Positions 10,130-52,841 of a stretch of DNA of 64,000 nucleotides are shown piece by piece. The DNA is from Verrucomicrobiota bacterium. GTDB taxonomy: Bacteria > Verrucomicrobiota > Verrucomicrobiia > Chthoniobacterales > Terrimicrobiaceae. A program made the translations under genes and the position numbers. The notes under the pieces were generated by a model. It was not told the origin of the DNA. It worked only from the letters and a program-made list of their open reading frames with translations, and searched no databases. Every line of letters starts with the position of its first letter. Within the stretch, counting starts at the first letter, position 1. The DNA is taken from positions 62,001 to 126,000 of the forward strand of contig JAPLTF010000061.1 of NCBI GenBank assembly GCA_026398275.1, read 5' to 3'.

Positions 10130-10283
10130 TATTCTCCTCTGAAAATGGCCATTTCCTCTGTAGAGAAAAATCGTTTGGTGGCCCTTGGTGATCAAAAGGT
10201 GCCGTTTGAGGCCGTTTTTCGCTATGGAAAAATAGGGAAAGAATTTTTTGAAAATCACATGAATTCCGCCAATAAAGCGGCAT

Positions 10284-28624: not shown

Positions 28625-28721
28625 ACCTTCTTGGAGTGCCAGGTGCCATGGGGAAGAGTGTAAAAGGCTTAACGTATTCGACGCCTGAACGCCTCCGGAA
28701 TCTGCTTCATGCTTTTGTGTC

Positions 28722-29537: not shown

Positions 29538-30797
29538 TCAGAGCTCACTCCGCCCGGAGAGCACCGTTTTTGTATAGGCATCCACGGCATTCATCCACTC
29601 CCCGTCGCGCAGGCGGTCGTGGCGGACGCAGTGTTCGTCCCAGACGGCGCCCCAGGGCAGGCTGCGCCAGTCTTCAAATAGCGAGAGTCTTCGCGCGTCA
29701 TCGCCGGAATTTTCCGCGGCGGTGAGCCGTGACTGCGGGGCGAGCAGACCGAGCAGGACCGCCTTCTGCGTGTTGCGCGTGCCGATGGTCCATGCGGCGA
29801 TGCGGTTGATCGAAGCGTCGAAAAAGTCGAGCCCGACATGCGTGCGCGGCAGGAATCCTCCGACGACAACTTCATGCAGCATCTCGCGGGTGGGGTCGTC
29901 GAGCATCACGACATGGTCGCTGTCCCAGCGCACGCCGCGCGAGACATGGAGCAGAAGACGCGGGACATGGAGCATGACGGCAGAGATTTTGTCGGCCACG
30001 GATTCGGTCGGATGGAAATGTCCGGCGTCGAGACAAAGGGCGACCTGATGACTCGCGGCGTAGCCGAGATAGAATTCATGGGAGCCGACGGTGTAACTTT
30101 CAACACCGATACCGAAGAGCTTGCTTTCGACTGCGTCGATGTTGAACGCCGCAGAGGAGCCGAGGTCGGAAGCAAAGATCGCATCGAGCGATTCCGCGAG
30201 ACGCTCGCGCGGACCGAGGCGGTCGGCGGGCCGGTCCTTCGTGCCGTCCGGGATCCAGATATTGGTGACGACCGGATTATTCAGCGCCTCGCCGAATGCG
30301 GCGGCGATCCGGCGGCTGGCAATGCAGTGGTCGATCCAGAACTTTCGCACGGCCGGGTCCCGGTGGGAGAGCGTGAAGCCGTCAGCGGCGAGCGAGTGAC
30401 CAAAGCAGGTCGGGTTGAAATCCACACCCCACCCGCGGTCCTTCGCCCAGTCGAGCCAAGAACCGAAGTGCGCGATGGTCAGTGCATCGCGATCCGCCTT
30501 GGCGGCATTGTCGGTCGCATAGCTCGCGTGAAGGTTGATCCGGAGCGGGCCGGGCAGGAGCGAGGCGACCTGCTCAAGGTCACTGGTCAACTCGGAAAAA
30601 TTGCGCGCTTTGCCGGGATGGTTGCCCGTGGCCACGCAGCCGGAGCCGGCATTGCCGGAGGCATTCTCGAAGCCGGCCACATCATCTCCCTGCCAGCAAT
30701 GGAGGGAAATCGGGGTGGCATCGAGGGTGGTGAGGGCGGCATCGGCATCAATGCCCCATGCGGCGAAGCGTTCGCGGGCGCTATCGTAGGGTGTCAT
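29538..30797 (-). CDS. rhaA: L-rhamnose isomerase
   Basis: A protein of 419 residues, the usual length for RhaA. Diagnostic stretches are [15 protein letters not shown] near the start, [15 protein letters not shown], and [19 protein letters not shown] with metal-binding Asp and His. The enzyme converts L-rhamnose to L-rhamnulose in the cytoplasm with manganese. It is the last gene of a six-gene minus-strand unit, overlapping the preceding glycosidase gene by ATGA. No rhamnulokinase or rhamnulose-1-phosphate aldolase is present in the window. Confidence 0.95.
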
Positions 30798-33083: not shown

Positions 33084-33992
33084 TCAGAAGACTTTCTTGA
33101 TGGCCCGCAGGCTGGTGCGGAGTTCGTCGGCGAGGCGCGCGTCCGAGTAGTCGCGGCCGATTTTCGGTCCCATGATTTCCAGGTAGCCGACCACATCATC
33201 CACCGGCCAATCGGCCGCGTGCCGGTCACAGAGCGCCTTGAAGGCGGCGAGATCGACCGTGCCTCGCTTTTGCTCATCGGCGTTGAATCCGAATGTCGAA
33301 CTGAAAATGGCATCGGTGTTTTTGAAATGGAACTCGCACATCATCGGGAGGCCTGCCACGAAGAGGTCGATGTTGGAAAACAGGACGTTCTTCTGCGCGT
33401 CGCAGAGGCCGTGGCTGATGTCGCCGCAGAGCCAGGTCGGAACGGTCTCGTCCGGATGTGCGGCATGGTCGGCCTGCATTTCGCCGATGTAGTCGCGCAT
33501 CTCGTCCGGCGTGGTGGGCGGCTCGGCGAGGCAGGACATCGGTTCCATGGTGAGCGCTTTGATTCCCAGCGAGCGGGCCTTGCGGGAAAGTTCCTTGAGG
33601 TGGCGGAGATAACAGGCCGTGCCGGCGGCTTTGTTCGCGGCCTGGTCGCGATAGACCGCGCCGGGATTGGATCCCACGTAGTCGGCTCCGACCAGCGCGC
33701 CAACCTCGATCAGGCGCTCAAAGCCGCGCCGCGCGGCGCGCTCCATGCGGGCATCCCCGACAAAAAAGCCCCCGAGTTCCCGGTGGGCGGTAAAAACGCT
33801 CTTGATCCTCAGCCCGCGAGATTCCGCCTTCGCGCGAAGGTCGGTGAAGTAGGAATCTTCCAACACGTAAAGTTCAAAAAACGAACCGAGCTGGATGTTC
33901 TGGATTCCCTCGTCCACGAGGAGGTCGAACAGCCAATCAAAGCTGTAGCGGGTTTCGATGCAGTCCGTTTTGAGACCGAGTTGGATTTTCAT
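33084..33992 (-). CDS. Sugar phosphate isomerase/epimerase (TIM barrel, AP_endonuc_2)
   Basis: A 302-residue TIM-barrel protein of the xylose-isomerase-like family. Metal ligands typical of the fold are suggested by LTMEPMSC, WLCGDISHG and MCEFHFKNTDA. There is no signal peptide, so it acts in the cytoplasm. The family isomerises or epimerises sugars and sugar phosphates. It is third in the operon, 10 bp before the glycosidase and overlapping the dehydrogenase gene before it by ATGA. Confidence 0.8.
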   Translation of the reverse strand: MKIQLGLKTDCIETRYSFDWLFDLLVDEGIQNIQLGSFFELYVLEDSYFTDLRAKAESRGLRIKSVFTAHRELGGFFVGDARMERAARRGFERLIEVGALVGADYVGSNPGAVYRDQAANKAAGTACYLRHLKELSRKARSLGIKALTMEPMSCLAEPPTTPDEMRDYIGEMQADHAAHPDETVPTWLCGDISHGLCDAQKNVLFSNIDLFVAGLPMMCEFHFKNTDAIFSSTFGFNADEQKRGTVDLAAFKALCDRHAADWPVDDVVGYLEIMGPKIGRDYSDARLADELRTSLRAIKKVF

Positions 33993-35041
33993 AAAAGGTC
34001 CGGGCTCACCCGGAAGATGACCTTATTATGGTAGGACTTCCTCTCCCGGATGCTGGAAAATATGGCAGGCCCGTCTTCCAAGGTCGGGGTGTCCGTGACC
34101 AGCGGTGCGATTTGCAACTGACGGTCCATGTATTTGAGGACCGTGGACCAGTCGTCGGTGCCGCGCGGGACAACCTTGCTGTTCCACGTGCCATGGAGGG
34201 TGAGCTCGCGGCGCAGGATGCTGGAGAATGCCTTCTCGCCGAGCTGAAACTCGCCGTGCAGATTGCCCATAAAAACCACCTCCCCGAACGTCGCCGCGCA
34301 GGCGATCGCCTGGGCAAATGTCGCCGGCAAACCGCACGCCTCGATGACCCGCTGGGCGCCGGTCCCCGATGTTCGCTCCATCACCTGCTGCACCGGGTCG
34401 CCAGCTTTGGAGTCGATGGCCTCGAACCCCATTTCCTCTGCCAGCTTGAGCTTGCGCGGATCCACATCAGCGATCATCACGCGCGCGCATCCGTGGATGC
34501 GGAGCCATTGCGCCGCCATGTTGCCGATCGGTCCGGCACCGATGACGAGCCCGGTGTCGCCTGTGGCAATGCGCATCTTGCGCACGCCATGAAGCGCCAC
34601 GGCGGCGGGCTCGGTGCAGGCCGCGTGCAGGAGCTGCACTTCGGGCGGTAGCGGAAAAAGATTGGCAACGGGAACCCGGAGAAACTCCTGCATGCCGCCA
34701 TCGCGGCGCGAACCGAAATAGTCGTAGTTCGTCGTCTGCGCAAAGTCCCCGGTGTCAAAGCCGGGCTGACCGGGTTTCGGGATCAACGGAAAAACCGCCA
34801 CGCGGTCACCCCGCCTCACGCCGGGGCCATCCTCTTCCACCACGGCACTGAACTCATGCCCGAGAACCAGCGGATACAAATACGCCCCGCCGGGATCAAA
34901 ACCGCGCGGGATGTCGCTCCCGCAGATGCCGCAGGCGGCGACGCGAACGAGAACGGAATCAGATGAGGGATTTTCAGACGGGACCGGACGGTCCGCATGG
35001 AAGACGAAGTGCCCGGGTGACTCGAGGACGAGGGATTTCAT
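33989..35041 (-). CDS. Zinc-type alcohol dehydrogenase lacking the structural zinc cysteines
   Basis: A 350-residue medium-chain dehydrogenase. Catalytic zinc ligands are seen as ACGICGSD and LGHEFSAVVEE, and the Rossmann glycines as VIGAGPIGNMAA. The structural-zinc loop, usually four cysteines, is replaced by PKPGQPGFDTGDFAQTTNYD, and the phrase YFGSRRDGGMQEF resembles galactitol-1-phosphate 5-dehydrogenases. It likely oxidises a polyol or sugar derivative with NAD(P). It overlaps both operon neighbours by 4 bp. Confidence 0.85.
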   Translation of the reverse strand: MKSLVLESPGHFVFHADRPVPSENPSSDSVLVRVAACGICGSDIPRGFDPGGAYLYPLVLGHEFSAVVEEDGPGVRRGDRVAVFPLIPKPGQPGFDTGDFAQTTNYDYFGSRRDGGMQEFLRVPVANLFPLPPEVQLLHAACTEPAAVALHGVRKMRIATGDTGLVIGAGPIGNMAAQWLRIHGCARVMIADVDPRKLKLAEEMGFEAIDSKAGDPVQQVMERTSGTGAQRVIEACGLPATFAQAIACAATFGEVVFMGNLHGEFQLGEKAFSSILRRELTLHGTWNSKVVPRGTDDWSTVLKYMDRQLQIAPLVTDTPTLEDGPAIFSSIRERKSYHNKVIFRVSPDLL

Positions 35042-36147
35042 GGGTGGTCAAAATCGATAATGACTTTCAGGCTGTCGCCATCGGCGGCGCGTTGAATGGC
35101 CTCCAGAATTTGGGACGGGCGGAATCTCTCCGTCACGTTTGTCATCAGCCCCAGCTTTGGCAGTTTTCCGCCTGTCAGGAGTTCGTGCGCGAGACGGATT
35201 CCGTGCATCGAGGAACCGTGAGTCGCCTGAAGGCATTGCAGCTTGTAGTGAATGTCATTGTTGAGATCGACCTCGTGGGTGATGCGGGGTTTGCCTCCGG
35301 CTCCTTTGACCCCGGCGTGGGCATCGAGCACGCTCCCGTAGCCGAGTAGTTTCACCGAGAGTTCGTATCCCTCGCGGGCCGGGACGTTCATCATCACAAA
35401 ATGCGGTTCGTTGAAGGGTTGGCAGGCGGTAAAGACGTTCTCGACGACTTGCTCATCCCAGCGGATGCCGACCACACGCTCGTCGCCAAAATCCCGCAGC
35501 ACCCGCTCTAGCCGCTCGGCCCCTCGGTTGACCAAAATGATTTTTCGCGCCCCCATCGCTTGTGCGCACTGGAGGGCATAGGTGCTTTGCGAACCCGCAC
35601 CGATGAGCACCACCACGCGGTTCGTGATGCAGTTGTTCACCCGCGTCATCCCCTCGAGACAACACGCGAGCGGCTCAAGTTGGCAGGCGTGATCGGGATC
35701 AAATCCCACGGGAAATTTCATGATCGGTCCCAGATCCACAAACCAGTCCGGCAGAATCGCGTGGGTCCGCGCAAACCCCGGAAATTCGTGTCCGGTCGCC
35801 TGCGTGTTCGGACAACAGGTCCAATCACCCGTTCCTTTGTCCCCACAGTAAAGGCAAGCCCGGTCGCCACACGGGATGTCGCATCCGATTCCGATCAAGT
35901 CTCCGGGCGCAAATTTCGTCACTCCTGCGCCCACCGCCTCCACCGTCGCGCTCACTTCATGCAGGATCACTGCCGGCCAGCTCTTGATGCGCGGCAAGCC
36001 GACACGCTGGATGACCACGTCGCTCTGACAAACCGAAACGCGGCGGGTCCGGACGAGCATCTCCCCCGGCCCCGGTTCGGGGAGTTCCTGCTCCACTGCG
36101 GAAAACGATCCGCCCGGCTTGTCTAACAGATAGAAAATCGATCGCAT
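35038..36147 (-). CDS. Zinc-type alcohol dehydrogenase with structural zinc loop
   Basis: A 369-residue medium-chain dehydrogenase from the ATG at 36147. It has the catalytic Cys in VSVCQSD and His in ILHEVSATVEAV, and keeps a cysteine-rich structural loop (CGDRACLYCGDKGTGDWTCC). The Rossmann motif is VLIGAGSQSTYALQ. It is the first gene of the minus-strand operon leading to rhaA and starts inside the palindromic operator described at 36146-36202. With the second dehydrogenase it could run a reduction/oxidation pair on the same sugar backbone. Confidence 0.85.
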   Translation of the reverse strand: MRSIFYLLDKPGGSFSAVEQELPEPGPGEMLVRTRRVSVCQSDVVIQRVGLPRIKSWPAVILHEVSATVEAVGAGVTKFAPGDLIGIGCDIPCGDRACLYCGDKGTGDWTCCPNTQATGHEFPGFARTHAILPDWFVDLGPIMKFPVGFDPDHACQLEPLACCLEGMTRVNNCITNRVVVLIGAGSQSTYALQCAQAMGARKIILVNRGAERLERVLRDFGDERVVGIRWDEQVVENVFTACQPFNEPHFVMMNVPAREGYELSVKLLGYGSVLDAHAGVKGAGGKPRITHEVDLNNDIHYKLQCLQATHGSSMHGIRLAHELLTGGKLPKLGLMTNVTERFRPSQILEAIQRAADGDSLKVIIDFDHP

Positions 36148-36202
36148 GATTGAAATATGATTGACCTTAACCGTCGCTATAATCATATATCAATCATATT
36201 TC
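36146..36202. promoter_or_regulatory. Divergent operator: perfect 13-bp inverted repeat
   Basis: GAAATATGATTGA (36152-36164) is repeated in inverted orientation as TCAATCATATTTC (36190-36202). Extra ATGATTGA (36146-36153) and AATCATAT (36181-36188) half-sites lie nearby, and TATAAT occurs at 36178-36183 between the arms. The site separates the dehydrogenase-rhaA operon from the epimerase-deoR genes. The DeoR protein encoded 700 bp away is the obvious candidate to bind it and repress both units. Confidence 0.7.
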
Positions 36203-37803: not shown

Positions 37804-39222
37804 TCACGCTCCGGCGAGTTTCATGAATCGGTTGGCGATCGCCAGCGCGGGATCGAGTGGAACCTCGGCGCGCTGCACATCTTTTGGGATGCTGATGGAC
37901 GGAACCGGGCGCAGCGTTTTTCTTGCGAATTGCGGGAGGTATTTCGCTTCGGCCTGCAGCATCTCGGCAACCATGTCCCGAATTTCTTTGAGCGTCAGCA
38001 CCGAGGCGGTCAAGGGATCGAGGGCGACCGCATTCATGACGAGTTCTGGATCGCCCGTGAAGCTGGCTTCGACGGTGAGGCCCTGGACGAGCACGTTGGT
38101 CATGTTGAGCGCGGCACACTGGATCGGCAGGTTGCCGACAACCGTCGGGTGCAGCCCCAATCGGTCCACATAGATCGGCACCTCCACGCAAGATCCGTTG
38201 GGGAGGTTTGTGATGTAGCCGTCGTTGCGGACATTACCATTCAAACGGAACGGGACGCCGGTCTCCAGCGCCTCGATGATGTGGGAGCAATACTCGGCGC
38301 TGCGCGGCCCGAGCTGAGTGGTTTCCAATGCCAGCGGATCGGTCGTGGCAAATTTTCCGGCCAGCATCTCGCAGTATTTGTAGTAGGCCCCGCTCTCGCC
38401 GCCGAAGGAGGGTTCGTCGCAGTAAAGGTCGAGCGCCTTTTTGTTTTTGCGGAAATAGGGCAGATACTCGGAGAGATGCCCGGTGCTTTCGGTCATGAAA
38501 TACCCGAAGTGCCGCATCACCTCCGCCCGGACTTTTTCATTCACGTAATAACCGGGCTTCTCAAAATTTTCCTTCAGGAGCGGGTAGAGGTCTTTCCCTT
38601 GATGTTGAAGCCGGAGGAACCAGCCCATGTGGTTGATGCCGGCGCAAAGATAGTCGATCTCGTCTTTCGGCACGCCGGTGTAGCTGGCGATGAGGTCCAT
38701 CGTCGTCTGGACCCCGTGGCACAGCCCGACAAACTGGAGGCCCTGGACGCGCCCGAGCGCCCAGCAGCACATGGCCATCGGGTTGGCGTAGTTGAAGAGG
38801 ATCGCATTCGGACAGACCTCGCGCATGTCGTTGGCGATTTCCAGCAGCGCCGGAATATGGCGCAGGGCGCGGAAGACCCCGCCCGGGCCCATCGTGTCGC
38901 CGATGCACTGGTCCACACCGTATTTGAGCGGGATTTCGTAGTCCTGCCGGAACTCCTCGACCCCGCCGGATTGGATCATGACCACGACGTAGTCGGCATC
39001 TTTGAGCGCTTCGCGACGGTCGGTGGTGGCGACCACGCTGGCGTCGATCCCATTGTCCTTGATCATCCGCTTCACAAACGCCTCCATCTTGTCGAGCCGG
39101 GTGTGGGTCAACGCCATGAGGCGGTATTCGCTTCCCGCCAGAGCGAGGGTGGCAAGGAAGTCCGACATCAGGGTTTTGCAGAAGACGAGGCTTCCTGCGC
39201 CGATCATTGCGATTTTAGCCAT
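37804..39222 (-). CDS. GH4 alpha-galactosidase (MelA type)
   Basis: A 472-residue NAD- and manganese-dependent family 4 glycosidase. The Rossmann start IAMIGAGSLVF, TMGPGGVFRALR, FNYANPMAM, the metal-binding Cys168 in GLCHGVQ and His198 in CAGINHMG, then GYFMTESTGHLSEY and GNVRNDGYI follow the MelA pattern closely. GH4 enzymes cleave through oxidation at C3 and elimination. There is no signal peptide, so it acts on imported galactosides. It is last in a five-gene minus-strand cluster. Confidence 0.9.
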   Translation of the reverse strand: MAKIAMIGAGSLVFCKTLMSDFLATLALAGSEYRLMALTHTRLDKMEAFVKRMIKDNGIDASVVATTDRREALKDADYVVVMIQSGGVEEFRQDYEIPLKYGVDQCIGDTMGPGGVFRALRHIPALLEIANDMREVCPNAILFNYANPMAMCCWALGRVQGLQFVGLCHGVQTTMDLIASYTGVPKDEIDYLCAGINHMGWFLRLQHQGKDLYPLLKENFEKPGYYVNEKVRAEVMRHFGYFMTESTGHLSEYLPYFRKNKKALDLYCDEPSFGGESGAYYKYCEMLAGKFATTDPLALETTQLGPRSAEYCSHIIEALETGVPFRLNGNVRNDGYITNLPNGSCVEVPIYVDRLGLHPTVVGNLPIQCAALNMTNVLVQGLTVEASFTGDPELVMNAVALDPLTASVLTLKEIRDMVAEMLQAEAKYLPQFARKTLRPVPSISIPKDVQRAEVPLDPALAIANRFMKLAGA

Positions 39223-42557: not shown

Positions 42558-43625
42558 TCAGGCTCCTTTCAAGAGGCGGATGTATTCGCGGGCGATACGG
42601 ATGTCTTCCAACCCCTCCGCTGCCAGGCACGGCGCGGGGGCTTCGCCCCGGACAGCTTTGATAAAGTTCAGCGCCTGGTTCCGCATGGCGTGGACCCACG
42701 GCAGGGTTGGGCGAATGGTCGTCGGCACGGCTCCGTTTCCGGGATCTTTGAAGATTTCGACCTGGCCTGGGCGGTTGTAGGCAACCGGCGCGGGCAGTTC
42801 GAGTTTCACGTAACCCTTTTCGAAGGCCACCAGCGCAGATTCCTGCCAGTCGATCGTCGTGTTGTAGGCGGCCATCTCGATCGTGCAGGGAACCCCGCTC
42901 GCGCTGTGCGCGACAAACAGAACCTTCGCCGGGTCGGCATAGCTCACCGTGTAGGATTCGCCGAGCAGATGGCGCAGCAGGTTCACCTGATGAATATAAT
43001 AATTCACGAAGGCTCCGTATTCGCCCGCTGTGGCCTCATCCATGTCGGCAGGCGCGGGATCCCACTCGAGGCTGCCGGTCGGCTCGCTCGAATTGATGAA
43101 ATCATTGAACCCGGACGCGATCCAGTCCCCCGGCGGCATGGCCAGGCGGATGTAATTCATCTTGCCGCATTCACCGGACTGCTTCCACTCCTCGATGGCC
43201 AGTTTGGCATATGCGGTCGCGGGATCGCTCCGCTTGTGGTAGCCGAGCATGAGCCAGGTCTTGTGCTCCTCGAGCGCGCGAACGATTTTTTCGCCGTCCG
43301 CGATCGAGCCCGCAATCGGCTTTTCCGTGAAGATCGGGAGACCGGCCTTGGCCAGCTCCGGAACGAGAAGGCCGTGCCGGGCAAAGGGTTGAGAGGCCAC
43401 GATGGCATCGAGCTTCTCGCTTGACAGCATTTGTTCGTGACTTTCATAGACACGCGGAACGCCGTAGCGCGCCGCCACCTCGCGGGCGAGCCCGGGGCGG
43501 ATTTCCGCCAGGGCAACGACCTCGCATTCCTCAGAGAGGCTGGGACTGGCATAATTCCGCAAGTGGGCGCACTGGCCCATCCCGCCGACGCCGACGAATC
43601 CGATTTTTACTTTTTTATGGTTCAT
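42558..43625 (-). CDS. Gfo/Idh/MocA family oxidoreductase
   Basis: A 355-residue protein from the ATG at 43625, which overlaps the URO-D-like gene by ATGA. It has the N-terminal Rossmann motif IGFVGVGGMGQCAH and the family's catalytic lysine in FTEKPIAG (the EKP motif), and a C-terminal alpha/beta domain with YIHQVNLLRHLLGE. Members oxidise hydroxyls of sugars with NAD(P), often at C3. It belongs to the cluster ending with GH4. Confidence 0.88.
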   Translation of the reverse strand: MNHKKVKIGFVGVGGMGQCAHLRNYASPSLSEECEVVALAEIRPGLAREVAARYGVPRVYESHEQMLSSEKLDAIVASQPFARHGLLVPELAKAGLPIFTEKPIAGSIADGEKIVRALEEHKTWLMLGYHKRSDPATAYAKLAIEEWKQSGECGKMNYIRLAMPPGDWIASGFNDFINSSEPTGSLEWDPAPADMDEATAGEYGAFVNYYIHQVNLLRHLLGESYTVSYADPAKVLFVAHSASGVPCTIEMAAYNTTIDWQESALVAFEKGYVKLELPAPVAYNRPGQVEIFKDPGNGAVPTTIRPTLPWVHAMRNQALNFIKAVRGEAPAPCLAAEGLEDIRIAREYIRLLKGA

Positions 43626-44728
43626 GATTGATAACAAACTTCTTTGATTTGGTTCGCTGCATATTGAAAATTGTCCCAGCTCGCGTCCGGGGGAATCAGG
43701 TGGTCGAAACCGGGGATATAGCGGCCGAGCTTGACCATCTCGCGGGCTCTGGCCACCTCGCGGTCCACGTGTGTCCTCGTGAGGGCGAGAGCCCGCTTGT
43801 CGAGTCCGTGCATGATCCCGATCGTCGGATACTGCCGGCGATATTCGAGAATGTCACAGCCGGCCTGGACCTCGAACGGAAACATCATGTTCACGCCGTG
43901 CCCGATCATCACCGGCACGAGCTGATAGCAGTCGCCATCGGTGTCCACCGACACCACCCGCACGCCATGGCTCCGCGCGAACTCTGCGATCCGGTCGTAG
44001 CACGGCATCATGAACTCCTCCACCATGGCGGGAGAAATCAGCGACCCCTGTTTGCCGGCCATGTCCTCCCAGATGTGGATGTGATCGATTTGCACCTCGT
44101 CGGCCACCCGCTCCCAGAGGGAAATCCACAGGGTCGTCAGGTGCTGCATCATGTCTGCCATCCATTCCGGATCATCGTAGAATGTCACCAGCATCTCCTC
44201 GACCCCGATCAGGTCGCGCACCGTCCCGAAGACCCCCCACGGAAACTCGCCAACCTGCACCGCCTCACCGGTCTCAGCCAGGCGCGCACGAAAGGCCTCC
44301 CAATCCTGCCGGATCCGCCCCGGAGTGTCCGGCTGCAACCGCTCGGCCTTGAGCCGGTCCCAGTCCGCACGGCACTTGATCGGATACTCCAGAAACTCGG
44401 GCATCGAGCCGTGATCGCGACGGTTCCGTTTGGTGATGCCACTCCCGTCGCGGGTGATGATGTAGTCGTCCGTTTCTTCGATGACAAGATGCTCGAACTG
44501 CGGAAAGAACCCGCTTTCGATCTCCGGGATCGCGAAGCTCAAGTCATATCCAAAGAACTTTGCGGGATCCAAATCGGCGATCCCCGACTCCTGCCGCCAC
44601 CGCTCCGTTGCCTCGCCCCACGGATACCACCCCAGCCCGACGCCGAACGGAATCTGGTCCACCGGATGCCCGGTGAGGCAGCGAATCAGCCGCTCTCCGG
44701 GCGGCAGGGAGTTTCCGCTGGTTTTCAT
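43622..44728 (-). CDS. Uroporphyrinogen decarboxylase-like protein
   Basis: A 368-residue URO-D superfamily protein from the ATG at 44728. It shows RLIRCLTGHPVDQIPFGVG at the start, HIWEDMAGKQGSLISPAMVE, VVSVDTDGDC and IGIMHGLDKRAL. The superfamily includes true HemE and corrinoid-dependent methyltransferases. Members inside sugar clusters form a separate group of unknown activity, and no corrinoid-binding protein lies nearby. It heads the minus-strand cluster and is divergent from an AraC gene. Confidence 0.72.
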   Translation of the reverse strand: MKTSGNSLPPGERLIRCLTGHPVDQIPFGVGLGWYPWGEATERWRQESGIADLDPAKFFGYDLSFAIPEIESGFFPQFEHLVIEETDDYIITRDGSGITKRNRRDHGSMPEFLEYPIKCRADWDRLKAERLQPDTPGRIRQDWEAFRARLAETGEAVQVGEFPWGVFGTVRDLIGVEEMLVTFYDDPEWMADMMQHLTTLWISLWERVADEVQIDHIHIWEDMAGKQGSLISPAMVEEFMMPCYDRIAEFARSHGVRVVSVDTDGDCYQLVPVMIGHGVNMMFPFEVQAGCDILEYRRQYPTIGIMHGLDKRALALTRTHVDREVARAREMVKLGRYIPGFDHLIPPDASWDNFQYAANQIKEVCYQS

Positions 44729-44753
44729 TCGAGGAAACGTAGCGGAATCGAGG

Positions 44754-44797
44754 ATTGCCAACAATGGCCTGCATTGCCATTATTTGTCATTTATTGC
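44754..44797. promoter_or_regulatory. Direct repeats of an AraC-type operator
   Basis: ATTGCCA occurs at 44754-44760 and again at 44774-44780, a spacing of 20 bp, and a further ATTGC starts at 44793. Direct half-sites about two helical turns apart are typical of AraC-family binding. AATGGC (44763-44768) and GCCATT (44776-44781) also make an inverted repeat. The site lies between the URO-D-like gene and the AraC gene. Confidence 0.5.
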
Positions 44798-44799
44798 TC

Positions 44800-45546
44800 A
44801 TGAAGTTCAATCGAATGAAATTCCTCGGCTGTGGGACGATCCTGCCGGATCCGGGCTGGCGCATGCGTCCGCACTTTCACCCGTTTCATGAACTGATCGC
44901 CATCAAGAGCGGCTCAATGCGCTTAAATACAGAGTATGGTGCCGTCCTCGCGCAGGCTGGAGACGTCCTTTTTTACGAGGCCGGCCTGATCCACGAAGAA
45001 ATCTCCGTGCCGCAAGATCCCGTCAACACGCTCTTTCTATCGTTTTCTTCCGATCAGATATTGCCCGCCCTTCCGCTGCGGCTCCAAGACCCCGAACGGC
45101 GTGTGCTCGAACTCCTTGGCTGGATGCTCCGCGACCAGCACGAGGGGAGACCGACTTCGGATTGTCTCAAGCTTCTCGACGCCATCCTTCAAGAACTGCA
45201 GTGGATCCTTAGCCGTCCGAGCGATGCCTGGCTAGCACGCGTCCGCGATAACATGAAAACCCGCTACGCCGACAAACTTTCGCTTGCAGACGTTTCCCGT
45301 CATGCAGGCATGAGCCGGTTTGCCTTTGTGCGAAAATTCAAACGTCTGACCGGAAACACGCCGATGGAAGAATTGCGGAGAATCCGCCTGCACGCGGCAC
45401 GCAATCTCATTTTGAGTAGCGATCTCCCGATGAAGGCCATCGCGGCCAGCGTTGGGATCGGCGACGAATACCAACTCTCCAAACAATTCCGCCGCGAGTT
45501 CGGGGTCTCTCCCAGCCGGATCCGGGATCGTCCATCAGCCATCTGA
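44800..45546 (+). CDS. AraC family regulator
   Basis: A 248-residue protein from the ATG at 44800; the ATG at 44815 is possible. The N-terminal cupin has HFHPFHELIAIKSGSMRL, and the C-terminal pair of helix-turn-helices contains LSLADVSRHAGMSRFAFVRK and MKAIAASVGIGDEYQLSKQF. It probably activates the divergent URO-D/Gfo/VCBS/DUF6259/GH4 cluster when a sugar binds the cupin. It overlaps the convergent second AraC gene by 12 bp. Confidence 0.9.
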   Translation: MKFNRMKFLGCGTILPDPGWRMRPHFHPFHELIAIKSGSMRLNTEYGAVLAQAGDVLFYEAGLIHEEISVPQDPVNTLFLSFSSDQILPALPLRLQDPERRVLELLGWMLRDQHEGRPTSDCLKLLDAILQELQWILSRPSDAWLARVRDNMKTRYADKLSLADVSRHAGMSRFAFVRKFKRLTGNTPMEELRRIRLHAARNLILSSDLPMKAIAASVGIGDEYQLSKQFRREFGVSPSRIRDRPSAI

Positions 45547-46389
45547 AGCCCATAGGTGCGCTCCGCTCCGGTAGCTTCGGGCGTCGAGGCCGCCGGTAAA
45601 TTGTTTGAAGACCCTGGCGAAGTATTGGCTGCTCTCGAATCCGCAGTCGAGGGCGATGCGGGTGACGGGTAGCCCGGTTTCGCGCAGCATCCGGCACGCC
45701 TGTTGAACGCGCAAGCCGTTGAGGAATCGGACCGGCGTGTCTCCGGTTAATTTGACAAAGAGCGTCGAGAACTGGCTGCGCCCGAGTTTGCAGGAGGTCG
45801 CGAGTTCCGTCAGAGTCCACTTTTTGCAGGGATCGGCCTTGAGTTTCCCAATGAGGGCAAGCAGGCGCATCTCGACGGCGGCACGGGCGCGGCCTGTGGT
45901 CCGGTTGCGGTCCCCGGCCACACTCCGGACAAGTTCGATGATCACTGCGGCGGCAAGATGCCTCACCTTCGCACAATCCAGTGCCCCGGGATCGTGCGTC
46001 TCGCGCACCAACTCGGCAAGAAGCGGTCCGAGCGCGGATGTGGCCGGGAAGGCATGGCGTTTCACTCCGGTGAGGCGGGAAGAAATCTCGCGGGCCTCGG
46101 CGGCAGAGAACGGAAGATCGCGGGGCCATGCCAGCCTGCCATTCCGGGTCAGGCTCGCGGAGATGATCGCATAGGTCCACTCATGGCCCGGCTCGAATTC
46201 CCTCGCGCTGCCATGGAGTTGGCCCGGCAGCGTGAAGTAGACCATGCCGGGAGTGACCGATTCCTCGAGGTCCTCGGTGCGCCAGGTCAAATGACCGCGG
46301 CGGATATACACGATCTCAAGACCGGGATTCCGGTGGGGCGAGAGCCGGCGCATGCTGCCGCTTCCGGCTTGAACGATGAGGGGCGGCAT
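45535..46389 (-). CDS. AraC family regulator
   Basis: A 284-residue protein. The N-terminus is an AraC-type cupin (SPHRNPGLEIVYIRRGHLTW), and the C-terminal HTH pair contains TLTELATSCKLGRSQFSTLF and VTRIALDCGFESSQYFARVF. The gene is divergent from the Gfo-ThuA gene (110-bp gap), which is a likely target. It converges with the preceding AraC gene. Confidence 0.9.
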   Translation of the reverse strand: MPPLIVQAGSGSMRRLSPHRNPGLEIVYIRRGHLTWRTEDLEESVTPGMVYFTLPGQLHGSAREFEPGHEWTYAIISASLTRNGRLAWPRDLPFSAAEAREISSRLTGVKRHAFPATSALGPLLAELVRETHDPGALDCAKVRHLAAAVIIELVRSVAGDRNRTTGRARAAVEMRLLALIGKLKADPCKKWTLTELATSCKLGRSQFSTLFVKLTGDTPVRFLNGLRVQQACRMLRETGLPVTRIALDCGFESSQYFARVFKQFTGGLDARSYRSGAHLWASDG

Positions 46390-46499
46390 GACGGAACCGT
46401 AGCGTGATTGGGGACGGCTGGCGATTCCTTAATGTGCACGATTTACCAGTGGATGACCCTGCAAGCCAAATCCGCCCACGCGCCTTACCGTCGGGAATC

Positions 46500-48164
46500 A
46501 TGAAACCCCAAACCCCTCGCGTTGCAGCTGTCATCGGCTGCGGAAAATTCACTCCCGGCAAAGAAGGCTGGGCGATCGGCCATGCCCATGCGGAAGGCTA
46601 CAAGCTCGCTGATCCCGGCGTCCGCCTGCTCGGCGTCGATCCCAGTCCGGAAAACCTGGCGGCTTTTGGCGAGCGATTCGAGGTTCCCGCCGGGGATTTG
46701 TTCGCCTCCACAGAAGCGCTGTATGCAGCCGTCACGCCCGATGTTGTCAGCGTCTGCACCTGGCCGAAACTGCACGCGCCGCAGGTCTTGGAAGCCGCTG
46801 CTAAGGGTGTGCGCGGGATCATTTGTGAGAAACCCATGGCGCTTAACGGACGGGAAATCGACGCCATGCTCGAAGCCTGCGAAAAATCCGGCTCCCTCCT
46901 CGCCATTGCGCATCAGCGCTGCCACAACCCGAACTTCAAACTCGCCAAGAAGCTCCTCCTCGAAGGAGCTATCGGCGCCGACTGGGTTCTCGAAGCCCGC
47001 GTCGGGGACGGATGGGACATGCTTTCGTGGTCGGTCCATTGGATGGACATGGCGAGTTGGCTGTTTGATTCCACCCCGGTCTCCGTGCTTGCCGGTGCGA
47101 GCCACAGCGGACAGCGCGTTTACCAGCACGCCATCGAGGACGGGTCGGTTGTTTTTGCCGAGTATCCCGAAAAGCGCCAAGCCATCTTCATCACCGGTCC
47201 GAATCATTACCAACACGGTGAGATGGTTTTTGTGCGCGGCTCGGAGGGAATGATCGCCATCAACGAAAACCTCGAGCACCCCCTCCGCGTCTGGAATCAG
47301 GCGGATGGCTATCGCGAAATCGCGCTGCCGGTTGGTGAACCGCTGGGCGGGCATGCTATGGCGCTCGAGATGTTTGCCGCGCTCGATTCCGGAGCCCCGA
47401 TGCAGCTCGACGCATCACGCTCGGCCCTCACGACCCGGATGGCTTATGCGGCCCACGAATCGGCCCGCCTGATGAAAAAAATCGAGACCCCGCTGACCAC
47501 CGGATTTGCGCCGCTGGAAATCCTGCAGCACCCGCCCCGCCCATGCATTCCGGACGGACGCATCGTCCTCTTCGCCGATGAACACTTCGGCAGCGGCGGG
47601 CGCGAGGGTATCCTCGACGCGCTGGAAAACGCCACCGGAACCCGGCCCGACTTGATCGAGGCCTCAGCAGGCCTCACCCAAGAGGACCTCACCGATGCCG
47701 CCGTCCTCCTCCTTTACCACACGCAAGAGGAGCCGTCGCCGGAAACCAAGGCCACGCTCACCGCATGGATCGAGTCCGGCAATCCGACCGTCTTCGTCCA
47801 CGCGGCCCTCGGAGGCTACAAAAACTGGACGGAATACCACCAGTGGGCCGGTAAAATCTGGGTCTGGGGCACCTCCGATCATCCCTACGTGGAGACCCGC
47901 TTGGTCACGACCGATTCCCGATTCGTCGCATGGAAAGAAGCCTGGCTGCCCAATGACGAAGTCTTCATCAGGCTCGGCGAAATGGCCGACGTGGACGTGA
48001 TCGTCGAAGCGACCATTTCGCTCGGAACCTTCCCGGTGGCATGGATTTTGAAATCGCGCCCGAATGTCGTTACATGGGTTCCCGGCCACCGCCGTGAAAT
48101 GTGGTCGGTGCCCGCGATGTCCTCCGGCCTTGTGGATATGATCCGCATCGCCTCGAAACCCTGA
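46500..48164 (+). CDS. Gfo/Idh/MocA oxidoreductase fused to a ThuA-like domain
   Basis: A protein of 554 residues from the ATG at 46500. The first 350 residues are a Gfo/Idh/MocA oxidoreductase: Rossmann start VAAVIGCGKF, catalytic Lys in CEKPMALNG, then IAHQRCHNPNF and a C-terminal domain. From about residue 360 (RIVLFADEHFGSGGREGILD) a ThuA/trehalose-utilisation-like amidotransferase fold follows, ending with WVPGHRREMW. ThuA is usually a separate protein that converts 3-keto-sugars, so the fusion joins two steps on one chain. It is followed 26 bp later by a sugar isomerase gene. Confidence 0.82.
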   Translation: MKPQTPRVAAVIGCGKFTPGKEGWAIGHAHAEGYKLADPGVRLLGVDPSPENLAAFGERFEVPAGDLFASTEALYAAVTPDVVSVCTWPKLHAPQVLEAAAKGVRGIICEKPMALNGREIDAMLEACEKSGSLLAIAHQRCHNPNFKLAKKLLLEGAIGADWVLEARVGDGWDMLSWSVHWMDMASWLFDSTPVSVLAGASHSGQRVYQHAIEDGSVVFAEYPEKRQAIFITGPNHYQHGEMVFVRGSEGMIAINENLEHPLRVWNQADGYREIALPVGEPLGGHAMALEMFAALDSGAPMQLDASRSALTTRMAYAAHESARLMKKIETPLTTGFAPLEILQHPPRPCIPDGRIVLFADEHFGSGGREGILDALENATGTRPDLIEASAGLTQEDLTDAAVLLLYHTQEEPSPETKATLTAWIESGNPTVFVHAALGGYKNWTEYHQWAGKIWVWGTSDHPYVETRLVTTDSRFVAWKEAWLPNDEVFIRLGEMADVDVIVEATISLGTFPVAWILKSRPNVVTWVPGHRREMWSVPAMSSGLVDMIRIASKP

Positions 48165-48190
48165 TATCCACGCCGAACAATTCCACCACC

Positions 48191-49039
48191 ATGAACATCG
48201 GTTGCTTCGCTCTCAATACCCCCTTCAGTCCGCTCGACGTCCAGCTCGCGCAGATCGCGGCCTGGGGGTTCAAATACGCGGACGTCACCGACAACTGCGA
48301 CGGAGCTTCGCTCGGTGTGGAGTTCGGCTTCGCCGCTGTCGCGAGCCTCGACGCGAACCCGCATGACATCCGGCGGAAGTTTGCCGCGCACGACATTGAG
48401 ATCACCTGCTGGTGCGCGCACGCCAACCTCCTCGATCCCGCCGCGCCGTGGCGCTTCGGCACCGGGCAGATCATCAAAGCCATACGGGCCGCCGCGCTCA
48501 TCGGCGTCAAACACGTCATCACCACCGAAGGCGAACCCACCACTCCCTTCGGTCATGCGCTCACAACCGACGAGCAGATTTTCAGCATCCGCGAAAAGCT
48601 CAGCGAGCCTCTGCGCCTCGCGGAGGACCTGGGCGTTCAGGTTCTCATCGAACCCCACGGTCCAGTGACGGACAGCATCGCCCTCACCGAGCGTGTGCTT
48701 GATGCCTGCAACTCCCCCGCCCTCGGTCTCAACCTCGACACCGGCAACCTCTGGCTCGGAGGTGGCGACCCGGTCGCATACGTCAAAAAATTCGGATCAA
48801 AAATCGCGCATGTTCACTGGAAGGACATGCCGGCCGAAATGGAGGCCAACCGCGGGAAAGTCTTCGGCTGCGGCATGGCCACCATCGCACTCGGCGAAGG
48901 CGTTGTCGGTATCGCCGAGGTCGTTTCGGAACTCCAGCGTGTTGGATTCTCCGGCCACACCACCCTCGAAATCGCCGGCGAAGCCGCCGTGCTCGCCAGC
49001 CGCGATTTCCTCAGCCGCCACGGCGTCGGCACCAGATAA
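48191..49039 (+). CDS. Sugar phosphate isomerase/epimerase (TIM barrel)
   Basis: A 282-residue xylose-isomerase-like TIM barrel starting at the ATG at 48191. Metal-site residues are suggested by VLIEPHGPV (Glu), LNLDTGN (Asp), AHVHWKDMP (His) and LEIAGEA (Glu). The order Gfo-ThuA then isomerase suggests that the product of the oxidoreductase is the substrate. The enzyme is cytoplasmic. Confidence 0.85.
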   Translation: MNIGCFALNTPFSPLDVQLAQIAAWGFKYADVTDNCDGASLGVEFGFAAVASLDANPHDIRRKFAAHDIEITCWCAHANLLDPAAPWRFGTGQIIKAIRAAALIGVKHVITTEGEPTTPFGHALTTDEQIFSIREKLSEPLRLAEDLGVQVLIEPHGPVTDSIALTERVLDACNSPALGLNLDTGNLWLGGGDPVAYVKKFGSKIAHVHWKDMPAEMEANRGKVFGCGMATIALGEGVVGIAEVVSELQRVGFSGHTTLEIAGEAAVLASRDFLSRHGVGTR

Positions 49040-49082
49040 ATTTGGGGTGCGGTGGGTTGCTGGGTCTCAGACTCTCTTTGGG

Positions 49083-49095
49083 CTGCCTTCGGCAG
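49083..49095. terminator. Small hairpin between convergent genes
   Basis: CTGCC (49083-49087) and GGCAG (49091-49095) form a short perfect stem with a TTC loop in the 105-bp gap between two convergent genes. There is no T-run, so this is at best a weak bidirectional terminator. The rest of the gap holds nothing else recognisable. Confidence 0.3.
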
Positions 49096-49144
49096 GCTGT
49101 CTCCGCTCCGCTCCGGCTGACACCGCCTTGGCTTCGCGGATTCA

Positions 49145-49954
49145 TCATGCCTCAAGCCACGTGAAGATTTTTTCGTGCATTCGGCTGATCGCGTCCTCGA
49201 CGGGGAAATCCGCTTTCGGAAGGTATTCGATGGAGACGAATCCTTGGTAGTCTCTGGCGCGGAGCGATTCGATGACCCAGCGGAGGTCGTCCTCGGATTG
49301 ATCGGGCGGAGCCTGAAGGCGTTCTTTCGCGCAACCCCGGAGGTGGACGTGGCTGGCTCCCGCGAGCAGGTCGGCCGTGGTGCGGACGTCTATGCCACGC
49401 ACAATGAAGTGGGACGGTTCGTAGGTGTAGGGCAGTTCGGGGAACTCGGAGAACAACCGACGGGCCGCATCGGGATTTTCAAAAGGGGTCTGGAAGTGGA
49501 TTTCCGGCGCAAGGCGCAGCGACCGACCGGCGATGGCGGCTTGAATGTCGCGCAGGCTGGCGAGGGTGTCGGACCAGACGCCTTCCGGGTCGTTTTTCCA
49601 ATCGGCGATGTATCCTGGGTAGTGCGCGCCGATGGCGATGCCGAGGCGCTCCATCAGGCGGGCAACGCCATGGACCTGGGCGATGCGCCGGGCATTGCCT
49701 GCGGGGTCGGAGCGGTCGTTCAGGTCCGGAGAAAATGCGCTGTTGAGCGAGACGGCGCGGAGTCCGTGTTTTGCAAGAAGTCTCTCGATGCGGGCAGCCT
49801 CGCTCTCAAAGTCGGAGGCCAGGGCCTCGACGTCGATGAGGCCCCAGCTCTGAATGGCCAGGAGGTCAACTTCGCCGAAGCCAAGAGCCTTGAGGCGGGT
49901 GAGGGCTAGGTCGAGGTCGTCGTTCCATGCGGCGGTGGAGGCGATAATTCTCAT
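49145..49954 (-). CDS. Sugar phosphate isomerase/epimerase (TIM barrel)
   Basis: A 269-residue protein from the ATG at 49954. It is an AP_endonuc_2-type TIM barrel with IASTAAWNDDLDLAL at the start, GAHYPGYI, LAPEIHFQTP, YTYEPSHFI, ASHVHLRGC and VSIEYLPKADF, each contributing Glu, Asp or His at strand ends. It ends a three-gene minus-strand operon and overlaps the preceding Gfo gene by ATGA. The frame continues upstream without a sensible start, so the ATG at 49954 is preferred. Confidence 0.85.
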   Translation of the reverse strand: MRIIASTAAWNDDLDLALTRLKALGFGEVDLLAIQSWGLIDVEALASDFESEAARIERLLAKHGLRAVSLNSAFSPDLNDRSDPAGNARRIAQVHGVARLMERLGIAIGAHYPGYIADWKNDPEGVWSDTLASLRDIQAAIAGRSLRLAPEIHFQTPFENPDAARRLFSEFPELPYTYEPSHFIVRGIDVRTTADLLAGASHVHLRGCAKERLQAPPDQSEDDLRWVIESLRARDYQGFVSIEYLPKADFPVEDAISRMHEKIFTWLEA

Positions 49955-51030
49955 TGGGGTAAAGTGAGGGGAAATTTTTCCAGTGCGTTGACCGCTTCGA
50001 CAGCAACCGGCGCGCGCGTGATGCCCGACTGGTAACCTGCGGTGATGACATTTTGCACCGTGAGCGTGCGCCGTCCGTCCAGCGGGTGAGGTGCGCCTGT
50101 GGCCAGGGAGGCAACGATCTGTTCGTAAGCGGCGGTAGCGCCGTTGATGGAATTCAGTCCGCCGCAGTCGAATTCCCGCCAGAGCCCGCCGGTCGCGACC
50201 GGCTGCGGGTAGGTGAACCACAGCTTCGGATCAAACGCGGCCGCGTGCGTTCCTGGCTGACCATCGGAGATGAACCAGTTGGGAGCTAGAATGTCTCCGG
50301 CCCGCCAGAGGCTGCCTCTGGAGCCGATCACATGGTATTCCTGATAGGCCCGCCGGGCGGCGAAGGAACCCGTTGCAACGCTCACTTGGACCGCATGGCC
50401 GGCCTGAATCTCCAGATGCGAACCGGCCTCGACCGGGTGTCCATGGCGGAGCCCGACGTGACTCAGATCCAGCGCCCCGAGCACCTCCGTGACTTCCGGA
50501 TCGCCCGCGACCGCGAGCAGGGAGTCGATCACATGCGTGCCGTCGCCGAGCAAATCACCCGCACAGTAGCCGCGCAGTTCCACGAGATCGCCCAGACCGC
50601 CATTCTTAATAAATGTGCGGACCGCCGTCACGTCGGCCATGCGCCGCTGGTGGTTGATCGTGAGCAGCACGCCTGCATCTTCGCTGACCGACACCATCTC
50701 ACGCGCATCCGCGGGATGCACCGCCATGGGCTTTTCGCAATGCACGGCCCGGGTGCCGCCACGCGCCGCCATCAAGGTGAGCCGGGCGTGAGAGCTTGTA
50801 TCCGTTCCGACCGTCACAACATCGGGACGGATGTCGGCAAGCAGAGCCGTCAGATCGGTGAAGCCGGGCACCCCGAGTTCGTCCGAGCATTTGGCGACGA
50901 GGTCGGGATTCAAGTCGCACACGCCCGCCAGTTCGACGCCACGGGCTTTGGCGATGGCAAGGAAGTGGAGTTTGCAGATGCCGCCCAGGCCGACAACGGC
51001 GACGCGCAGGTTGGGATCGGATAGGGTCAT
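49951..51030 (-). CDS. Gfo/Idh/MocA family oxidoreductase
   Basis: A 359-residue protein from the ATG at 51030. The Rossmann start VAVVGLGGICKLHFL, VTVGTDTSSHARL, the catalytic Lys in HCEKPMAVHP and the HQRRM segment identify the family. The C-terminal domain contains GTHVIDSLLAVAGDP. It sits between two TIM-barrel isomerases in the same operon, 2 bp after the first and overlapping the second, a layout expected for stepwise conversion of an oxidised sugar. Confidence 0.88.
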   Translation of the reverse strand: MTLSDPNLRVAVVGLGGICKLHFLAIAKARGVELAGVCDLNPDLVAKCSDELGVPGFTDLTALLADIRPDVVTVGTDTSSHARLTLMAARGGTRAVHCEKPMAVHPADAREMVSVSEDAGVLLTINHQRRMADVTAVRTFIKNGGLGDLVELRGYCAGDLLGDGTHVIDSLLAVAGDPEVTEVLGALDLSHVGLRHGHPVEAGSHLEIQAGHAVQVSVATGSFAARRAYQEYHVIGSRGSLWRAGDILAPNWFISDGQPGTHAAAFDPKLWFTYPQPVATGGLWREFDCGGLNSINGATAAYEQIVASLATGAPHPLDGRRTLTVQNVITAGYQSGITRAPVAVEAVNALEKFPLTLPQ

Positions 51031-51032
51031 TG

Positions 51033-51914
51033 TTAGAATTTCTTTTGCTTCACGGGAAAGAGGCCGCCCGAGATTTTCTCGAGGTGCCGCTTCGAGTCCG
51101 CCAGGCACTCGCGCGGGTCGCGATCCGGGTCGGGCACCCACTCGATCATCATGCGGATCCCGGCGGGGTCCGGGTGGAGCGCACACATCCGCTGGAAAAT
51201 CCGCTCCAAGCCGACATGTCCCGCACCGAGCGTGGCACCGGTCAGTTCGAAGTGCAGGGTCGCCGGATTCGGTTTCACGAAATGATCTTTCCAATGTGTG
51301 GCGCGGACCAGCGGAAATGCCTCGTCCGGGATGAGGTCGGGCCGCTCGCCAATGAGGAAGCAATTGCCCGTGTCGAGCATGATCTCGAGGCCGGGTGTCT
51401 GCCGGCACAGCTCCACCAGATCGGAAACGTAATAGTCTCCGTGGTTCTCGATGGTCGCCGGAAGTCCCGCCTCGCGGCAGCCCCCCACCAGCGGAGTCAA
51501 GCCCGCGCTGAGGGCTTCCAACTGACGCTCCAACGGGACCGTGCGATCAAACCGATGGCCTCCACCCGTCACCACGATCGCAACAAAAGCCACCGGCACC
51601 TCGTCCCGGAATCGAAGCAACGTCGCAAGCCCGGCTGCAAGGCGCTCGTGAGTGACTTTGACCGGATCGCAATAATCCAAGCCCACGTGCACGCAATAGC
51701 TCTGGCCATGGGACTCTGCCAAGTCTCGCAGGATCGTCCTGTGCGCGGGGTCGGTGAGATCGCCCACGCCAATGCCGCCGCCCGAAAATCCCTGCTCCGC
51801 CACGAAGCGGTGCTGGTTCGCCCACTGGTCGCCCTTCCAGAGGTTCAGTTCGCCGGGAAACACTCCGGCCATGCCCCAGTGCAGGGGAACGCGATTTGCG
51901 GGGATTGGATTCAT
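51033..51914 (-). CDS. Sugar phosphate isomerase/epimerase (TIM barrel)
   Basis: A 293-residue xylose-isomerase-like TIM barrel. Strand-end motifs are ATIENHGDYY (Glu), IMLDTGNCF (Asp), ATHWKDHFV (His) and MMIEWVPDPD (Glu). It is the first gene of the operon and starts 39 bp from the divergent AraC gene. Fold and metal site are clear, the substrate is not. Confidence 0.85.
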   Translation of the reverse strand: MNPIPANRVPLHWGMAGVFPGELNLWKGDQWANQHRFVAEQGFSGGGIGVGDLTDPAHRTILRDLAESHGQSYCVHVGLDYCDPVKVTHERLAAGLATLLRFRDEVPVAFVAIVVTGGGHRFDRTVPLERQLEALSAGLTPLVGGCREAGLPATIENHGDYYVSDLVELCRQTPGLEIMLDTGNCFLIGERPDLIPDEAFPLVRATHWKDHFVKPNPATLHFELTGATLGAGHVGLERIFQRMCALHPDPAGIRMMIEWVPDPDRDPRECLADSKRHLEKISGGLFPVKQKKF

Positions 51915-51953
51915 GATGTTTGTCTATTGTATCCCCTTGGCGGCGGTTGAGGA

Positions 51954-52841
51954 ATGGGTAGAGTGATAAAAAGCATGTCAAAAATGATCAGCGCATCGAA
52001 AACGGCTCCGCCGGACATTCCCGAGCCGGTGAAGGCGATCTTCGGGATCGACGAACGGTGGGGAATGGTCTCGGCCGCACGGGTTGCGTCCGAGCCCCGG
52101 AGGGCCGAGCGGGCATGGGCGCGGCAGGCGCAGTATGCATGGAATTTGATCGTGGAAGGCCGGGGGACCTTGACCGGGCCAAACGGATCGTCGTGGGACT
52201 TGGAACCAGGCGTCGCCTATTGTCATCTGCTCGACAGCACGGAGTGGCGTGTGGCATTCAATGGAAACGACATCGTGATTGAGTGGTATGTCATTCTTGA
52301 CCGTGGAACCCACAACCGCCTTGCCTGCCTGGGTCTCTTCGATGGCCCGCCCGTTCTGGCGTTCCGACAGCGGGCGCAGGCCGAGGAAATGATGCGGGAT
52401 TTCCAATCGGCGCTGGGAGATCTGGCCGATCAACCGCAGCGACTGGTGTTCCGGCGCACGCTGGCGGTGACCGTGCGGTTTTTTCAGAGGTGGTATGAGG
52501 CCGCGCTTGCACCAGATGAAACCGATCCGATGGACGCGCTGGTGCTTCGCGCGCGGGACTGGCTCGATGCGCACCCGCTCTCGCGCGAGCCATTGCCTCT
52601 TCTGGCAAAGCGGCTCGGGGTTTCGTATCCGCACCTTCGTCGCGGATTTCTCGCTCATTCCGGAATCACGCTGAACCAATACCGGATCGCACGCCGCATC
52701 GACGAGGCCCGCGCCTTGCTGCCCCACCGTGGGATCGCCTTCACGGCCGACCGGCTCGGCTACCCGGACGCGTTCACGTTCTCGCGTCAGTTCAAGGCAG
52801 TGACAGGGATGACCCCGTCGGAATTCCGGCGGCGGGGTTAG
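51954..52841 (+). CDS. AraC family regulator
   Basis: A 295-residue protein from the ATG at 51954; in-frame ATGs shortly downstream are alternatives. The N-terminal sensor (residues 30-150) is beta-rich with few recognisable motifs. The C-terminal HTH pair contains LPLLAKRLGVSYPHLRRGFL and FTADRLGYPDAFTFSRQFKA. It is divergent from the isomerase/Gfo/isomerase operon and upstream of the beta-helix gene, so either or both may be its targets. Confidence 0.88.
   Translation: MGRVIKSMSKMISASKTAPPDIPEPVKAIFGIDERWGMVSAARVASEPRRAERAWARQAQYAWNLIVEGRGTLTGPNGSSWDLEPGVAYCHLLDSTEWRVAFNGNDIVIEWYVILDRGTHNRLACLGLFDGPPVLAFRQRAQAEEMMRDFQSALGDLADQPQRLVFRRTLAVTVRFFQRWYEAALAPDETDPMDALVLRARDWLDAHPLSREPLPLLAKRLGVSYPHLRRGFLAHSGITLNQYRIARRIDEARALLPHRGIAFTADRLGYPDAFTFSRQFKAVTGMTPSEFRRRG

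Follow-up and report, generated by a model that had tools for sequence, protein, structure and literature searches.

At positions 46500-51914 of a 64,000-nucleotide stretch of a Verrucomicrobiota genome (the window; C93:62001-126000 of a 4.66-Mb genome, 98.7% complete), a natural fusion of a Gfo/Idh/MocA (Gfo) oxidoreductase to a ThuA domain, FUS, is followed by a TIM-barrel protein, TIM1, and faced by a second operon of two barrels and a further oxidoreductase. The sequence shows the gene structure, the identity of the domains, the conservation of residues and a recurrent gene association, and it flags a Gfo/ThuA/TIM-barrel module that recurs in Verrucomicrobiota. Judged from sequence, there is about an even chance that these genes serve a keto-sugar route, most likely through oxidation at C3 with elimination or hydration by TIM1. 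That glycosides can be cleaved by oxidising them first, as an alternative to using classical hydrolases, has been recognised only recently, and the presence of a natural fusion and an unfused set in the same genome offers a compact way to probe the role of ThuA.

Gene layout of the two operons

The two operons and their flanking regulators are arranged as follows.

45535-46389, minus strand: AraC2, AraC-type regulator, divergent from FUS with 110 bp between the starts
46500-48164, plus strand: FUS, 554-residue fusion, Gfo/Idh/MocA oxidoreductase at about residues 1-340 and ThuA domain at about residues 350-554
48191-49039, plus strand: TIM1, xylose-isomerase-like TIM barrel (PF01261, 105.5 bits)
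about 49145-49954, minus strand: TIM2, PF01261 TIM barrel, its start overlapping the Gfo3 stop
about 49951-51030, minus strand: Gfo3, Gfo/Idh/MocA oxidoreductase, with its ATG at about 51030 and the listed open reading frame (ORF) extending upstream to 51408
51033-51914, minus strand: TIM3, PF01261 TIM barrel, first gene of the minus-strand operon
51954-52841, plus strand: AraC3, AraC-type regulator, divergent from the TIM3-Gfo3-TIM2 operon

The reading frame of FUS runs from the ATG at 46500 to the stop at 48162-48164 with no internal stops, and 26 nucleotides separate this stop from the TIM1 ATG at 48191. TIM3, Gfo3 and TIM2 each score above their own Pfam cut-offs, and neighbouring genes of this operon either meet end to end or share a few bases. 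The two operons are convergent, meeting at about 49039/49145, and an AraC-type gene lies divergent to each. A preliminary description of this DNA had reported a single chain carrying Gfo and ThuA followed by a TIM barrel, with an isomerase-Gfo-isomerase operon nearby. The ORF, Pfam and profile matches bear out the first statement, the second corresponds to TIM3-Gfo3-TIM2 on the minus strand, and the outer coordinates given there, 46500 and 51914, are gene ends.

The Gfo-ThuA fusion and its relatives

Intact, full-length relatives of FUS, 41-63% identical to it, were found at nine loci in other Verrucomicrobiota (L012, L013, L014, L015, L016, L018, G023, G189 and G210, with L013 taken as the same record as G260). 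Since the full length is conserved in these nine other loci, a chance reading frame or a sequencing fusion is ruled out. The fusion is rare, as a profile search recovered it at full length in 5/387 genomes of the phylum, its own included. In eight of the nine intact relatives, the fusion operon has a divergently oriented AraC2 homologue, a weaker one in L022 and L023. A tenth relative (L017 2781-4019, plus strand) lacks about 130 residues, mostly from the ThuA part, through either a deletion or an assembly error. Genes near some relatives point to glycans, including a glycoside hydrolase (GH) of family GH43 in L015, a BNR-repeat protein in L014, and a sulfatase with a carbohydrate-binding-module protein in L024. 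Other scanned neighbours, in L013, L016, L017 and L018 (among them a sulfate permease in L018), give no such indication. Among plasmids, FUS matched 67 records, each over less than 80% of its length; in the 12 listed it is the Gfo half that is matched, with haloarchaeal names the most frequent, and neither ThuA nor a TIM barrel was seen in two of these neighbourhoods, for which the gene tables are incomplete. No title or abstract opening among those listed from the open-licence literature describes a Gfo-ThuA fusion.

Both halves of the chain are recognisable by domain, the Gfo half as a nucleotide-binding Rossmann domain followed by its C-terminal domain. When the 586-residue ORF containing FUS was searched with hmmscan, PF01408 scored 64.5 bits (cut-off 24) and PF22725 32.4 bits (cut-off 27), while the ThuA family, PF06283, reached 32.7 bits against a cut-off of 33.4; the same ThuA stretch scored 35.5 bits, above the cut-off, in a genome-wide family search. 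A Gfo protein in G322, 51% identical to FUS, stands without ThuA, and its match stops at fusion residue 340; the fusion junction was therefore placed there. The 6.7-kb contig of G322 gave no match to ThuA, TIM1 or AraC2. In the AlphaFold2 model of FUS (mean predicted local distance difference test score 83.5, predicted template modelling score 0.61), the former score falls below 50 at residues 339-346. On the Gfo side, E110-K111-P112 and R140 are invariant in all ten aligned fusions.

In the ThuA half, H362, H434, E487, G529 and H530 are invariant in 14/14 aligned domains, five of them fused to Gfo and nine not, which suggests that this half of FUS is a working domain. The ten fused ThuA domains aligned to a profile of nine other ThuA domains with an hhalign probability of 98.3 (E 1.9e-14). 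That profile matches the ThuA-like structures 4e5v and 1t0b; phmmer with the FUS ThuA half matched no ThuA structure, and the Foldseek rows shown for the whole FUS model are Gfo-type oxidoreductases only, the ThuA half being unrepresented there. Near TIM1 homologues, ThuA also occurs in other fusions; in L052 its partners, by Pfam, are cytochrome c and malectin domains. Fusions of ThuA with DUF6807, in both orders, were observed at L059 3899-5578 and L060 5042-6679, both on the minus strand.

We offer as a tentative and rather doubtful possibility that FUS is bifunctional, the ThuA domain itself carrying out the step after C3 oxidation, either cleavage of the 3-keto-glycoside bond or isomerisation. 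If true, this would tell what reaction the widespread ThuA family carries out, and it would explain why ThuA is repeatedly found beside or fused to oxidoreductases and DUF6807 proteins in Verrucomicrobiota. To our knowledge there is no published answer to what ThuA does, and none appeared in the titles and abstract openings listed from the open-licence literature.

Recurrence of Gfo and ThuA beside TIM1 homologues

TIM1 homologues, at an E-value of 1e-50, are present in 25 of the 387 phylum genomes, its own included. The neighbourhoods of 29 loci were examined: the window, L019 from the same genome, 23 loci fetched with TIM1 (L052-L074) and four fetched with the fusion (L012, L013, L016 and L018). 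Within 4 kb of the TIM1 homologue, 19 of the 29 loci have Gfo, 17 have ThuA, 12 have both, 9 have DUF6807 and 2 have GH4. Without the fusion-fetched loci, the corresponding counts are 15/25 for Gfo, 13/25 for ThuA, 8/25 for both and 20/25 for at least one of them. A distance control over the 29 loci placed 24 Gfo matches within 4 kb and 3 beyond, and 18 ThuA matches within and 0 beyond, with the qualification that the neighbourhood profiles were built partly from the counted loci and that flank lengths differ. Neighbour types were confirmed by Pfam in L052, L054, L055, L056, L059, L060, L061, L063, L065, L068, L069 and L072, and the count rests on profiles, without Pfam, in L053, L057, L058, L062, L064, L066 and L067; in L070, the ORF scanned is a GH42-like protein, other than the Gfo match of that locus.

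This clustering bears on the possibility that the genes act on some other sugar derivative, such as a uronic acid, amino sugar, methylated sugar or polyol, oxidised at another position, and that the shared parts merely follow from the high frequency of Gfo and TIM-barrel families in the phylum. Such families are abundant in this genome, which has 15 PF01261 matches (12 above the cut-off) and in which a first look with the fusion as query gave 21-22 candidates. Commonness of this kind is at odds with the concentration of Gfo and ThuA around TIM1 homologues in the distance control, and with the leaning of six unfused Gfo neighbours towards a glycoside 3-dehydrogenase, described below; we consider this explanation rather unlikely.

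The same genome carries an unfused version of the set. On contig C114 (L019), ThuA (9649-10344), Gfo (8576-9619) and a TIM barrel (7731-8570) stand in a row on the minus strand. The barrel is 71-73% identical to TIM1, the Gfo about 30% identical to the Gfo half of FUS, and the ThuA 20% identical to the ThuA half. Beside this cassette, at L019 10819-14319 on the minus strand, are a GH4-like gene, which scores 190.4 bits with an alpha-galactosidase NCBIfam model (cut-off 486), and two putative PhyH-like genes; the latter, like putative GH29 and GH2 genes of this locus, were read by eye from the ORFs.

In a tree of TIM1 homologues, TIM1 groups with the C114 barrel (100/97), and the fusion-adjacent barrels of L012 and L018 pair with each other (100/99) outside this clade. 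The placement of L016 is less sure, and long branches were flagged by the program. The gene order also differs, being FUS-TIM1 in the window and barrel-fusion in L012, L013, L016 and L018. The barrels that accompany the fusion thus come from at least two clades, and both gene orders occur, which suggests to us that one functional set was assembled repeatedly.

Evidence for and against a keto-sugar route

A keto-sugar route is favoured because the enzyme classes match those of published 3-keto pathways, because all six scanned Gfo neighbours lean to a 3-dehydrogenase, and because the markers of inositol catabolism are weak. The six are unfused Gfo proteins beside TIM1 homologues in other genomes, and for each the best match is the glycoside 3-dehydrogenase model BT_2158_fam, at 110-136 bits. 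For the barrel, H77, E154-x-H156, D183, H209 and E260 of TIM1 are invariant in 28/28 aligned sequences. A profile of TIM1 matched, in order, Art22, AsbF, 3tva, 3p6l, IolE (3cny) and AtHYD (8ro4), the last a 2-hydroxy-3-keto-glucal hydratase reached at E 4.2e-7, or 6.8e-5 with a six-sequence profile. Subunits of the C-glycoside enzyme DgpB-C are among the Foldseek matches of the TIM1 model. AtOGE is named neither among the 30 TIM1 profile matches nor among the structure matches listed, and the latter carries no weight either way. The preliminary description had likened the region to known 3-keto-glycoside pathways. The set of classes, the six BT_2158_fam best matches and the AtHYD profile match uphold this in part; the oxidoreductases of FUS and C114 miss the 3-dehydrogenase model, and the barrel fold does not discriminate.

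Several observations weigh against the keto-sugar route. All six BT_2158_fam matches are far under the 750-bit cut-off. FUS matches neither BT_2158_fam nor BT_2159_fam at E 0.001, and the unfused C114 Gfo likewise matches neither model; Gfo3 reaches BT_2159_fam at 29.7 bits, below the equivalog cut-off of 650. H180 of the Gfo half, which we take to be the position of the usual catalytic histidine of the family, is kept in 9/10 aligned fusions and is Tyr in L024. A TIM1 homologue lies beside the fusion in only four of the nine intact relatives (L012, L013, L016 and L018); the contigs of L014 and L015 are short, and in G023, G189 and G210 a TIM1 homologue stands elsewhere, away from the fusion. 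In five of the 25 TIM1-homologue loci, some of them on short contigs, Gfo and ThuA are both absent within 4 kb. Searches of 287 other genomes with TIM2, and of as many with TIM3, gave no relative at E 1e-25. Both barrels have a single distant match among plasmids, that of TIM2 (28% identity, Haladaptatus) adjoining a Gfo gene with a GH78 gene close by. Art22 and AsbF outscore AtHYD in the TIM1 profile search, the structural match of AtHYD to the TIM1 model (Z 24.4) is tied with ketose 3-epimerases, a histidine two residues past the acid of strand beta-5 is not confined to the barrels of these operons, and the best NCBIfam match of FUS is IolG.

The tie with epimerases leads to the main rival, in which Gfo oxidises the sugar and the TIM barrel epimerises the keto sugar, as does E. 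coli YcjR, a 3-keto-D-glucoside 4-epimerase, without eliminative cleavage of the glycosidic bond. In structure, the TIM1 model is about as close to UlaE, D-tagatose/D-allulose 3-epimerases and YcjR as to AtHYD, and at 33084-36186 of the window, on the minus strand, two zinc alcohol dehydrogenases accompany a PF01261 barrel, a set that is presumably YcjR/YcjQ-like in composition. TIM1, TIM2 and TIM3 differ from barrels L090 (EVVNRFE) and L092 of the same genome, which we take to look epimerase-like by motif, in carrying a histidine two residues past the beta-5 acid, and epimerisation leaves no evident role for ThuA. Epimerisation is, on balance, somewhat unlikely.

Two features of the barrels were considered as guides to their reaction and rejected. 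Structure comparison proved non-discriminating, as AtHYD, epimerases, Art22 and AsbF score alike. The beta-5 E-x-H motif, present in TIM1, TIM2, TIM3 and the aligned stretch of AsbF, is implied for C-glycoside eliminases in one report (PMC10628242). As a mark of elimination it counts little, since 5/11 other PF01261 proteins of the genome also carry the histidine, in a single MAFFT alignment read by eye in which 3 of the 11 proteins fall below the Pfam cut-off.

The IolG match raises the further alternative of inositol or inositol-like catabolism, by an IolG-type dehydrogenase and an IolE-type dehydratase. The best NCBIfam matches are indeed IolG for FUS (71.9 bits) and IolE for TIM1 (45.6 bits), and IolE is among the TIM1 profile matches. 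These scores fail the respective cut-offs of 355 and 290 bits, IolE (3cny) reads H-H-H where TIM1 has E-P-H, and the genome has no KduI/IolB (PF04962) match at E 0.001. The classical inositol route is unlikely because of this missing match and the failed cut-offs, and inositol-type catabolism in general appears improbable.

Proposed pathway and comparison with known systems

Under the favoured keto-sugar route, the region would consist of two AraC-controlled catabolic operons, probably cytoplasmic, for use of a sugar or glycoside via a keto intermediate. Using NAD(P), the Gfo domain of FUS would oxidise a sugar hydroxyl by hydride removal, most likely at C3. TIM1, a probable divalent-metal enzyme, would abstract the C2 proton of the ketone and then eliminate the aglycone or hydrate the resulting 2-hydroxy-3-keto-glycal. 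This keto intermediate would also be the substrate of the ThuA domain, and through the fusion the oxidation and what is probably the next step would stay on one chain. TIM3-Gfo3-TIM2 may be linked to the first operon and would add another oxidoreductase and another eliminase/hydratase pair. The preliminary description went further in proposing oxidation rather than hydrolysis for the region, which is too strong given that the window also contains GH4, GH43 and trehalase-like genes.

Oxidoreductases clustered with PF01261-like barrels (FUS, TIM1, TIM2, Gfo3 and TIM3) within 46500-51914 give the region a gene composition like that of the lgd and AtOGE pathways. The levoglucosan genes lgdA-lgdB1-lgdB2-lgdC of Bacillus smithii encode two oxidoreductases, with LgdC annotated as Gfo, and two "sugar phosphate isomerases", for a pathway of oxidation, elimination, hydration and reduction (PMC7676230). 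The window clusters hold the same classes of enzyme, oxidoreductases and isomerase-like barrels. The lgd set, as far as the available text describes it, has no ThuA or fusion, whereas the window has two convergent AraC-flanked operons and three barrels. FUS scores 47.8 bits with the LevoglcsnDh model (cut-off 650). LgdA, too, we take to be a Gfo protein.

An operon of Agrobacterium encodes GlycDH, a Gfo protein and two isomerases, AtOGE, which is a manganese TIM barrel, and AtHYD (PMC10628242). It resembles the window in its isomerase-like proteins and second Gfo, and the TIM1 profile reaches AtHYD itself. It differs in that the first oxidation is made by a flavoenzyme, and ThuA is unmentioned in the available part of the report (PMC10628242). 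The rhizobial operon thuEFGKAB includes thuA and thuB as degradation genes for a disaccharide, via 3-keto derivatives according to the title of a paper (Ampomah 2013) cited in PMC6683767. Its genes are separate and accompanied by an ATP-binding cassette (ABC) transporter, whereas in the window ThuA is fused behind Gfo and a TIM barrel is added. No ABC transporter was found among the ten genes scanned at 42558-52841. ThuB is presumably a Gfo protein.

In Bacteroides, BT2158 is a glycoside 3-dehydrogenase (PMC11300592) and BT2157 a 3-ketotrehalose hydrolase (PMC9007349). The six unfused Gfo neighbours from other genomes have the BT2158 family as their best match, unlike FUS, which misses it. The 3keto-disac_hyd family (PF06439) has one match in the genome, on a contig other than that of the window.

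Other genes in the window

At 42558-44764 on the minus strand, the gene of a URO-D/MtaA-like protein (PF01208, 45.2 bits) and another Gfo gene overlap, the pair being divergent from an AraC gene at 44755; this pair is possibly involved in corrinoid-linked demethylation of a sugar. A GH4 gene (37804-39222, minus strand) lies near the barrel and zinc alcohol dehydrogenase set at 33084-36186. At 25569-30797 on the minus strand, an L-rhamnose isomerase (RhaA, 2.3e-174) lies near a protein with an arabinose/fucose-isomerase C-domain, which suggests the use of deoxysugars.

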